46,355 nucleotides of DNA from Croceitalea sp. Its GTDB lineage: Bacteria; Bacteroidota; Bacteroidia; Flavobacteriales; Flavobacteriaceae. The DNA lies in assembly GCA_013001145.1 (NCBI GenBank), contig JABDND010000018.1, positions 1 to 46,355 on the forward strand, in the 5' to 3' direction. Within the stretch, counting starts at the first letter, position 1. Every line of letters starts with the position of its first letter. Under the pieces are notes generated by a model. It was not told where the DNA came from. It saw only the letters and a program-made list of their open reading frames with translations, and did no database searches. Shown here piece by piece: positions 29,480 to 31,921 of this stretch. The position numbers and the translations under genes were made by a program.

Positions 29480-29510
29480 TTGTTTGAATGCTCAAGGATG
29501 GTTAACTTTG
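29480..29510 (+). promoter_or_regulatory. promoter of the coiled-coil/zapA operon
   Basis: TTG (29480-29482), 20 bases, then a perfect TAnnTTTG, TAACTTTG (29503-29510). It lies 25 bases before the first ATG of the gene pair and is one of the strongest consensus matches here. Confidence 0.6.
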
Positions 29511-29535: not shown

Positions 29536-29826
29536 ATGGGCGAACTTGTTGAAATTGTTGATTCTTTAGAGAACAAGGTGAGCAAACTCTTGCACAAGCT
29601 TGAATTGCTTAGCCAGGCCAACGCTAAATTGAAAGAAGAATTGGATGCTGCCAACAAGAAACAACAAAACAACAAAAACGCTTTAGTTGATTGGGAAGAG
29701 AAATACAACTCATTGAAACTCGCAAACACAATGCTGGGTAGTAGTACAGACAAAACCGAAGCAAAACTCAAGATAAATACGCTCATTCGAGAATTGGACA
29801 GTTGTATTGCCCATTTAGCAGAATAG
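29536..29826 (+). CDS. coiled-coil protein, ZapB-like candidate
   Basis: From the second ATG (29536) this encodes 96 residues; the first ATG, six bases earlier, is equally possible. Almost all of the protein is one predicted coiled coil: LENKVSKLLHKLELLSQANAKL, shown here in shorter pieces (KVSKLLHKLELL, AKLKEELDAAN). It lies 12 bases before zapA. Small coiled-coil proteins placed directly upstream of zapA fit a ZapB-like partner that bridges FtsZ rings, but this is inference from position and fold only. Sequence similarity to proteobacterial ZapB is not obvious. Confidence 0.78.
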   Translation: MGELVEIVDSLENKVSKLLHKLELLSQANAKLKEELDAANKKQQNNKNALVDWEEKYNSLKLANTMLGSSTDKTEAKLKINTLIRELDSCIAHLAE

Positions 29827-29838
29827 CGATAACTAATT

Positions 29839-30135
29839 ATGGAGGAGAAGCTCAAAATCAAGCTTTCTATTGCAGATCGGGTATATCCGTTGACGATAGA
29901 CCCCAAGCAAGAAGAAGGATTGCGAAAGGCGGCCAAGAACATTGACCACTTGGCAAAGAAGTTTGAGCAAAACTATGCGGTTCGCGATAAGCAAGACGTT
30001 CTTGCCATGTGCGCGCTTCAATTTGCCTCTAAGATTGAGCAAAGCGGGATAAATGAATCTGAGAACATTAAAGAAGCGACCGCGCGCCTTCGTGCACTAA
30101 ATCAGCTGGTCCATTCGAAAATGGGATCGGAATAA
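29839..30135 (+). CDS. zapA: cell division protein ZapA
   Basis: This binds FtsZ and bundles its filaments at midcell, 98 residues, the usual size. The N-terminal beta segment (KIKLSIADRVYPLTID) is followed by the helical KQEEGLRKAAKNIDHLAKKF and QDVLAMCALQFASKIEQ, which match ZapA. The C-terminal helix is the usual dimer/tetramer coiled coil. It is cytoplasmic. It follows the coiled-coil gene after 12 bases and precedes a 6S-like RNA gene, a neighbourhood that recalls zapA-ssrS in gammaproteobacteria. Confidence 0.9.
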   Translation: MEEKLKIKLSIADRVYPLTIDPKQEEGLRKAAKNIDHLAKKFEQNYAVRDKQDVLAMCALQFASKIEQSGINESENIKEATARLRALNQLVHSKMGSE

Positions 30136-30149
30136 GTTCTTTAAAATAA

Positions 30150-30156
30150 TATATTG
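30150..30156 (+). promoter_or_regulatory. candidate -7 element of the 6S-like RNA
   Basis: The bases read TATATTG, close to TAnnTTTG but one T short, and end 6 bases before the start of the long closing helix at 30162. This is the distance expected from a -7 element to a transcription start. No TTG lies at the right distance upstream. Confidence 0.3.
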
Positions 30157-30159
30157 TTA

Positions 30160-30331
30160 CTGCCCACATTGGTAATTATTTTTTGACAAACTCAACACTA
30201 TTAAGTTTAAAAAGGGTGAGTTTAGGTTGTTAAAGCAGGCCCTACTTGCATAGGGATCCTTGAGCAGCTTGTTAGCCCTAAACCTGTTATTAGGAGTTTG
30301 TACAAAACTTCGGCCAATGTGGGCTTTTTTT
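30160..30331 (+). ncRNA. ssrS: 6S-like RNA (6S-Flavo candidate)
   Basis: The 213-base gap between zapA and rny holds a long, rod-like structure. An 11-bp perfect closing helix pairs 30162-30172 (GCCCACATTGG) with 30314-30324 (CCAATGTGGGC), followed by seven T, so the 3' arm doubles as a terminator. Inside are an 8-bp helix (30186-30193 with 30294-30301), a large unequal bubble (26 bases on the left, 10 on the right), a 7-bp helix (30220-30226 with 30277-30283), then short helices ending in the hairpin CCCTA-CTTGCA-TAGGG (30240-30255). A rod of about 170 bases with a central asymmetric bubble is the 6S plan that mimics an open promoter. A flavobacterial 6S motif is known in Rfam; I cannot run the model here. 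Confidence 0.75.
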
Positions 30332-30349: not shown

Positions 30350-31921
30350 ATGGACAATACGATAATGATTATAATAGCCGCGGTGGTTGGCTTGGGCATA
30401 GGCTTCGCCATCGCCAAAATGTTGGAAAAGGGAAAAGCCGCCAAAACCATCGCCAATGCCAAAAAGGAAGCTGCGAATATCATCAAAGAAGCGCACAAAG
30501 ATGGAGAGAGTATAAAAAAAGACAAGATTTTTCAGGCCAAGGAAAAGTTTTTGGAGCTCAAGGCCGAACACGAAAAAGTCATCATTAATAAAGACAAAAA
30601 AATAGGCGAAGCAGAAAAACGAATTCGCGACAAAGAATCTCAAATTAGCAGCGAACTAGCAAAGGGCAAACGCTTAAATGAGCAGCTGGAACAACAGATG
30701 CGGGAGGTTGAGCATAAAATTGAGATCTTCAATAAAAAGCAGGCCGAAGTAGACAAATTACACAAAAGCCAAGTTCAGCAGCTAGAGGTTATCTCAGCAC
30801 TCTCGGCTGAAGACGCCAAAAGCCAGTTGATGGAATCACTTAAAGAAACGGCCAAGTCGGACGCCATGGCTTACCTGCAAACTACTCTTGAAGAAGCTAA
30901 GCTAACTGCACAACAAGAAGCCAGAAAAATTGTAATTAATACTATTCAACGTATTGGTACTGAAGAAGCCGTTGAAAATTGTGTCTCTGTTTTTAATCTT
31001 GAATCTGATGATGTAAAAGGAAGAATCATTGGTAGAGAGGGTAGAAATATTAGGGCTATAGAAGCTGCAACCGGAGTTGAAATAATAGTTGATGATACAC
31101 CCGAAGCCATCATCCTTTCCTGTTTTGATTCTGTTCGAAGAGAGGTAGCACGCCTGTCACTGCACCGCTTGGTGACCGATGGTAGAATACACCCGGCACG
31201 AATTGAAGAGGTTGTTCGAAAGACCGAAAAGCAAATCAACGAAGAGATTGTAGAAATTGGTAAACGTACCGTAATAGATCTGGGTATACATGGTTTGCAC
31301 CCCGAGTTGATCAAGGCTGTGGGCAGAATGAAATACCGCTCATCTTATGGACAAAATTTATTGCAACACTCCCGTGAGGTGGCTAAATTATGTGGTGTTA
31401 TGGCCGCTGAATTGGGCTTAAACCCTAAAATTGCCAAACGAGCCGGACTTTTACATGATATAGGTAAAGTACCCAATACCGAGGTTGAAGTTGAAACCCC
31501 ACATGCTATTTTAGGGATGCAATGGGCGCAAAAATACGGTGAGAAAAAAGACGTTTGCAACGCAATAGGGGCACATCACGATGAAATAGAAATGACCACC
31601 CTTATTTCACCTATTGTACAGGTTTGCGATGCTATCAGCGGGGCAAGGCCCGGTGCGAGAAGACAGGTGCTGGATTCTTACATACAACGCTTAAAAGACT
31701 TGGAAGATGTTGCTTTTGGTTTTTCAGGTGTTCAAAAGGCCTATGCTATACAGGCAGGTCGTGAACTTCGTGTAATTGTGGAAAGTGAAAAAGTCAGCGA
31801 TGACAAAGCTGCGGAACTTTCATTTGAGATATCACAGAAAATTCAGACCGACATGACTTATCCCGGTCAAGTCAAAGTAACGGTCATTCGTGAAACAAGA
31901 TCCGTGAATGTGGCCAAATAA
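30350..31921 (+). CDS. rny: ribonuclease Y
   Basis: This is a membrane-anchored endoribonuclease that starts mRNA decay, 523 residues from ATG at 30350. The longer frame from 30260 would run through the 6S-like RNA and add 30 residues without sense. A single N-terminal transmembrane helix (about 4-22, [17 protein letters not shown]) is followed by a long charged coiled coil (about 30-180). Then comes a KH domain with [19 protein letters not shown] (two runs) and [13 protein letters not shown]. The HD domain (about 330-430) has the metal motif [10 protein letters not shown]. The length and order match RNase Y. It lies 19 bases after the 6S-like RNA terminator. Confidence 0.96.

Follow-up and report, generated by a model that had tools for sequence, protein, structure and literature searches.

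The RNA that lies between zapA and rny in the flavobacterium Croceitalea sp. is very probably the 6S RNA of this organism, a member of a known family, and the order zapA-6S-rny occurs not only in Bacteroidota but also in Desulfobacterota (which we take to be the GTDB name for Thermodesulfobacteriota), in Acidobacteriota, in a few Nitrospirota loci and in a rokubacterium. 6S RNAs restrain transcription globally; in E. coli and B. subtilis it is established that they attach to the housekeeping holoenzyme and serve as templates for product RNAs. It is proposed here, with a probability put at roughly 0.45, that Bacteroidota, Desulfobacterota, Acidobacteriota and their relatives inherited zapA-6S-rny as an old unit, of which the proteobacterial zapA-ssrS-ygfA would be a derivative, and that many Bacteroidota 6S RNAs have no sigma-A promoter of their own and would be made from the zapBA transcript under boxA/Nus antitermination. 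What is new is the boxA-like motif after the zapA stop codon and its tie to open zapA-rny gaps, together with the -7 box pattern. In the literature consulted, mostly titles and abstract openings, no description was met of zapA-6S-rny across phyla or of a boxA before 6S RNA, and the place of 6S RNA beside zapA was discussed only for Proteobacteria.

The window, that is, the whole stretch of 46,355 nucleotides that was analysed, carries on its + strand the gene order zapB-like gene, zapA, 6S RNA and rny, with a gap of 214 nt between zapA and rny. A zapB homologue is present in 89 of 89 loci of the family. The features are the following.

29503 to 29510, + strand: -7 box TAnnTTTG (TAACTTTG), presumed promoter of the zapB-zapA operon
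29536 to 29826, + strand: zapB-like coiled-coil gene (PF06005, 20.6 bits, under the cut-off of 31.5)
29839 to 30135, + strand: zapA (PF05164, 68.2 bits, E 8e-19)
30136 to 30146, + strand: boxA-like motif GTTCTTTAAAA, exact GYTCTTTAANA, immediately 3' of the zapA stop codon
30161 to 30331, + strand: 6S RNA (6S-Flavo), entire rod with terminator; Rfam core at 30190-30299
30162 to 30172, + strand: closing helix P1, 5' strand; partner 30314-30324
30181 to 30193, + strand: helix P2, 5' strand; partner within 30294-30307
30194 to 30212, + strand: central bubble, 5' strand, unpaired in the tested structure; expected template of product RNAs by likeness to known 6S RNAs
30213 to 30279, + strand: apical arm, P3 to P6
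30213-30217/30275-30279, + strand: helix P3
30224-30228/30266-30270, + strand: helix P4
30233-30235/30259-30261, + strand: helix P5
30240-30243/30252-30255, + strand: helix P6
30280 to 30293, + strand: central bubble, 3' strand; UAAACCUG at 30279-30286 is like the -7 box TAnnTTTG, a putative role by likeness to known 6S RNAs
30314 to 30331, + strand: terminator, made of the P1 3' strand (30314-30324) and the U tract (30325-30331)
30350 to 31921, + strand: rny, encoding RNase Y (PF12072, HD and KH; RNase_Y_N E 2e-33)

An earlier note on this DNA had claimed a structured RNA of the 6S plan between zapA and rny, and such an RNA is indeed there: its flanks are identified by PF05164 and RNase_Y_N, and the stretch 30160-30331 folds with a minimum free energy of -59.9 kcal/mol (z -5.04), none of 200 shuffles being equally good. 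When the whole window was searched with Rfam, the sole match at gathering threshold was RF01685 (6S-Flavo, published by Weinberg et al. 2010, PMC2864571), with 102.5 bits at 30190-30299 against a cut-off of 85, so in sequence and structure the RNA belongs to this family. Under permissive settings the general 6S model RF00013 spans 30158-30329 from its first to its last position with 28.8 bits (E 9e-4), which is below its cut-off of 46.4, and the RNA is therefore filed under RF01685 and not under RF00013. Of the two covariance models that the earlier note had named, the 6S-Flavo model thus stood, whereas the general model, although matched end to end, stayed under its cut-off. The same rod is matched end to end (30168-30330) by RF01693, the Bacteroidales-1 RNA, whose Rfam description reads "6S-Bacteroidales RNA suggested", but with 26.2 bits against a cut-off of 60. 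The likeness to 6S/SsrS RNA (RF00013) extends to the rod, the central bubble, the closing stem and the place after zapA as in beta- and gammaproteobacteria; unlike there, the next gene is rny and not ygfA, and a boxA-like motif stands in front.

For the comparison of structures, 89 loci of the family were collected (19, 30 and 40 from three sets), and an automatic procedure cut 86 of them down to the stretch that runs from the 5' closing strand through the U tract, failing at L294, L320 and L326. Sixty-nine of the 86 were aligned, 17 having been removed by eye as near-duplicates or for long apical insertions; the alignment was made by sequence and not fitted to the structure, which was taken from one row and the Rfam consensus. 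In these 69 relatives the 41-pair structure has 97.7% of its cells paired, and 30 of the 41 pairs show double changes. Doubly changed cells number 254 against a shuffle mean of 59.9, and none of 500 shuffles attains any of five measures, with the caveat that related rows can beat shuffles without structure; when partners are slid by 1-3 columns, pairing falls to 32-50%. Helix by helix, P1 is 99.1% paired with nine of 11 pairs doubly changed, P2 95.9% with five of 13, and P3 to P6 96.1-99.4% each with 16 of 17 pairs taken together. Unconstrained RNAalifold returns nearly the same structure, P2 being recovered in part only. An alternative helix, GUUUAGG/CCUAAAC, a possible form of the collapsed bubble, was rejected, with 73.3% of cells paired and no clear excess of double changes.

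The structural mark of the 6S class is a rod, preserved by compensatory changes, in which a closing stem, a central bubble with unequal sides and an apical arm follow one another, and all of these were found. The class is further marked by polymerase binding, by product RNAs and by an abundant stable transcript of about 170-190 nt. The 6S plan of the earlier note is upheld by RF01685 over its cut-off, by the full-length, sub-threshold RF00013 match and by covariation: compensatory changes occur in the closing and central helices across the aligned rods of the 69 relatives, and the 11-bp closing helix that was said to double as the terminator runs straight into the T tract. The central bubble is asymmetric, as had been described, but its covariation-supported sides are about 19 nt (30194-30212) and 14 nt (30280-30293) and not 26 and 10, and the single apical hairpin has to be given up for an arm of four short helices of 5, 5, 3 and 4 bp. 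A link between RNase Y and the 6S RNA, suggested in the same note, has their adjacency as its sole basis.

The structure supported here goes beyond the Rfam model of 6S-Flavo, which has 108 positions and 17 pairs, stops within P2 and omits the closing helix, and an extended covariance model of 166 positions, R1, was made from the 69-row alignment. R1 gives 167.6 bits at 30161-30329 of the window, a high score because the window helped to build the model, and it recognises loci outside the family as well. The - strand also scores with R1 (30157-30325, 35.7 bits), which is expected since the rod is nearly symmetric.

The 3' bubble strand carries a UAAAC[CU]UG-like sequence, with TAnnC[CU]UG in 49 of the 69 rows; four or five of the six fixed bases of TAnnTTTG are present in 67, and the fifth position of the -7-like box is C and not T in 66. 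This resemblance is in the position expected of a sequence that mimics the non-template strand, and both the mimicry and the possible start of the product RNA are to be taken as leads only. 6S RNA has been detected in Bacteroides thetaiotaomicron, for which product RNAs are also reported (PMC7366714), and it is among the detected RNAs of Flavobacterium psychrophilum (PMC9723704).

Within the family, sampled with one genome per genus, RF01685 was found in 118 of 120 genomes, in 110 of them over the cut-off, and the zapA-rny gap of family loci with its 6S RNA is nearly identical to that of a Flavobacterium locus (L094), which is why the family is taken to be Flavobacteriaceae. Across the phylum it was found in 22 of 198 genomes, ten over the cut-off, and homologues of zapB, zapA and rny stand at 21 of these 22 loci; the exception, L022, is a 6S RNA by R1 (58.6 bits). 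The rny gene was found in 159 of the 198 genomes. An RNase Y match at E 1e-30 is absent in the other 39, and 16 of the 20 listed among these are from families f11 and f22. In the stretches upstream of rny from 60 further genomes, cmscan gave RF00013 matches in ten, with E values no higher than 0.5 and a single score over the cut-off, all directly upstream of rny by their coordinates. The corresponding stretches of 20 class-mates of the window gave no 6S match with Rfam models, and R1 matches three of the 20 weakly (L023, 27.7 bits; L025, 22.8 bits; L026, 19.3 bits). From RF01685 alone most Bacteroidota would look to be without 6S RNA, but the RF00013 matches in zapA-rny gaps and the R1 matches show RF01685 to be narrow; R1 itself, under strict filters, found only 24 of the 198 genomes, and the others may or may not have a 6S RNA. 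Matches to miRNA and other unrelated Rfam families in L042 and L037 were ascribed to composition. Four Bacteroidota genomes, of the window's class but of other orders, have a 6S RNA away from zapA-rny, with R1 scores of 58.6 (L022), 47.8 (L439), 46.4 (L440) and 42.7 bits (L441); the zapA-rny gap is estimated at less than about 190 nt in the L022 genome and is 73 nt in that of L439 (L037).

The positions of promoter-like sequences bear on how the RNA is made. In Flavobacterium psychrophilum, sigma-A promoters are marked by TAnnTTTG, the -7 box, which spans -12 to -5 (PMC9723704). On the + strand of the window from 27.97 to 31.94 kb, TAnnTTTG occurs once, as TAACTTTG just before zapB, and 86 of 89 family loci have such a box 15-27 nt ahead of the zapB start that a profile predicts. 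None of the 87 anchorable family loci has it between the zapA stop codon and the 6S start; none of 49 loci has it in the stretch from the 6S terminator to rny, a weak result since only 1.3 are expected by chance. Scans for general sigma-70 promoters and short-hairpin terminators were set aside, as they do not suit Bacteroidota promoters and turned up two weak + strand hexamer pairs, both away from the 6S start; a composite -33/-7 pattern in which the spacer has 19 nt was likewise dropped, occurring in chance numbers with no site near zapB or 6S. A GTTAC-type pentamer is conserved just before the 6S start in most family loci (30156-30160 in the window); it may belong to the start region or be a site of processing. 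Among the four relocated 6S copies, only one has a clear -7 box of its own: L440, without a boxA, has TATATTTG at -13, L441 has a loose TTTCTTTG at -17, and a G[TC]TC motif directly in front is lacking in all four. Cotranscription with zapBA when the 6S RNA stands behind zapA, and an own promoter when it is relocated, fits these observations, with one clear case.

The boxA consensus GYTCTTTAANA was derived for gammaproteobacteria (PMC5725501) and not for this phylum, and GTTCTTTAAAA at 30136-30146 agrees with it exactly. After zapA the consensus is exact in 36 of the 89 family loci, has one mismatch in 28 more and is worse in 25, and a boxA-like G[TC]TC[TA]T lies within 15 nt of the zapA stop codon in 81, leaving eight loci without it. 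The motif goes with the gap: among loci that are Bacteroidota by name or class-mates of the window and in which zapA was detected (L029 and L030, with gaps of more than 400 nt, set aside), it occurs within 60 nt after the zapA stop codon in 35 of the 39 whose gap measures 190-400 nt, as against none of the 21 whose gap is shorter. When 38 of these open-gap loci were shuffled by a first-order Markov procedure, 1.6 occurrences were to be expected; the 39 are not independent, since at least 22 are Flavobacteriaceae, and not every open gap need hold a 6S RNA. The four open-gap loci without the motif are L020, L021, L103 and L195, of which the first three have a 6S RNA by R1 despite this. A looser form of the motif is found in nine of 29 loci of other Bacteroidota classes; outside the phylum none of 54 zapA-6S-rny loci has it. 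In 40 of the 89 family loci the 6S RNA itself contains, 60-90 nt after the zapA stop codon, a further string that agrees with boxA at 10 of 11 positions, for example ATTCTTTAAAAA in the 5' bubble strand; the window and the Flavobacterium rows inspected have no such string.

In rRNA and suhB leaders boxA, a site for NusB/NusE, likewise stands before an untranslated structured RNA (PMC5725501), whereas here it follows a coding gene, precedes a 6S RNA and is in a different phylum from that of the consensus; that boxA survey, by its own account, leaves non-coding RNAs aside. The incomplete genome of the organism gave no 16S gene for a comparison of leader boxA sequences; 16S leaders of relatives have, by eye, a GTTC[A/T]TT-type motif in several and a diverged GTTC[A/G]TAGACATATTG in others. 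Judged from sequence, there appears to be an even chance that the 6S RNA comes chiefly from the zapB-zapA transcript, with the help of boxA.

The main rival to this half of the proposal is that the 6S RNA has a non-consensus promoter of its own, GTTCTTTA being a DNA promoter element and not boxA and GTTAC or a TAnnTT-like sequence being the -7 region, a serious if doubtful possibility. It owes its standing to the near-constant spacing of motif and 6S RNA in the family (22-27 nt in 77 of 81 loci) and to the motif not being rare in the genome, where GYTCTTTAANA is not enriched, occurring 40 times and its reversed control 36 times. The conserved GTTAC directly upstream of the 6S RNA would suit it too, as would TATATTGT at 30150-30157, which fits the motif SM5, TAnnTTGY, reported for Flavobacterium psychrophilum (PMC9723704). 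However, TATATTGT is not conserved, the motif outside the family lies 1-38 nt after the zapA stop codon at a visibly variable distance from the RNA, and it agrees with the published boxA consensus (PMC5725501) and resembles the 16S leader motifs of some relatives.

The order of the genes carries the other half of the proposal. zapA-ssrS-ygfA is described for beta- and gammaproteobacteria (PMC7641849). An RNase Y motif scan of GTDB contigs returned 119 stretches, of which 80 were used; 60 of these were not titled Bacteroidota, and, ten Firmicutes being left out, 49 genomes were searched whole with RF00013. Matches were obtained in 34 of the 49, and 30 loci were examined. In seven of the 30, rny is beside the 6S RNA, in six of them together with zapA (four Desulfobacterota, one rokubacterium and one acidobacterium), the seventh being a Nitrospirota locus with rny alone. 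The remaining 23 have neither gene adjoining; they are 17 Firmicutes, two Armatimonadota, one spirochaete, one myxococcote (in a record titled Deltaproteobacteria), one phycisphaera and one other with the 6S RNA at the contig start.

In larger samples RF00013 was found in 37 of 59 Desulfobacterota, 43 of 60 Acidobacteriota and 39 of 41 Nitrospirota genomes, and neighbours on the same strand were counted in 1.5-kb flanks of the best-scoring 29 newly returned loci of each phylum. The counts, which because of this choice of loci are not rates for the phyla, are zapA in 25 and rny in 29 of 29 for Desulfobacterota; zapA in 26, rny in 20 and both in 20 of 29 for Acidobacteriota; and zapA in 19, rny in six and both in three of 29 for Nitrospirota. 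The same-strand zapA is upstream of the 6S RNA. The surmise of the earlier note that the place after zapA is common to distant phyla thus holds, the shared neighbourhood extending past the gammaproteobacteria. Moreover, in eight of the 29 Desulfobacterota loci (L332, L335, L336, L339, L346, L349, L350 and L355; the 6S RNA of L339 is at 407-587 of its contig) a 5-formyltetrahydrofolate cyclo-ligase gene lies between the 6S RNA and rny, and PF01812 was confirmed in both of the cyclo-ligase genes tested. These orders join zapA-ssrS-ygfA with zapA-6S-rny.

Common descent suggests itself as the simple reading of the shared order. That zapA and 6S RNA came together by chance or by horizontal transfer is improbable: it could appeal to the 23 of 30 loci of the mixed sample without either gene and to the four Bacteroidota genomes with the 6S RNA elsewhere, but chance adjacency is not credible with an upstream, same-strand zapA so frequent among the best-scoring loci of three phyla, in genomes of 1.5-9 Mb. 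Most improbable of all is that the rod is only a large terminator or attenuator between zapA and rny without action in trans on RNA polymerase, for the U tract of the closing helix and the weak lack of TAnnTTTG before rny, which would agree with it, are opposed by the conserved bubble sequence, by matches to three 6S families and by the product RNAs reported for the Bacteroides 6S RNA (PMC7366714).

On the proposed reading, that of an inherited unit with boxA-aided cotranscription, the single consensus promoter before zapB would, from the promoter positions, drive a zapB-zapA-6S transcript. The boxA-like element after the zapA stop codon would allow a Nus complex to carry the polymerase across the untranslated RNA; it may also, as rRNA leaders suggest by analogy, tether the 5' end close to the polymerase and so help the closing helix to form. 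In E. coli the 16S leader-trailer helix is essential and changes of boxA cost only 2- to 3-fold (PMC10250234). The closing helix and the U tract would then end most transcription, and read-through past them would make rny. As in the 6S family, the central bubble of the rod would imitate a melted promoter, and the RNA would bind the housekeeping RNA polymerase and block it as cells slow, to be released once the polymerase has used the bubble as template for a short product RNA.

If this is true, the levels of 6S RNA and RNase Y are coupled to the cell-division operon and to the Nus machinery that also serves rRNA. Were boxA to work before the 6S RNA, Nus-dependent antitermination would cover one more global stable RNA, and the production of an untranslated RNA inside an operon would have an explanation. 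The same order in four phyla besides Bacteroidota, with the cyclo-ligase intermediates, suggests common descent, and synteny may serve as an orthology test for 6S families whose sequences align poorly.
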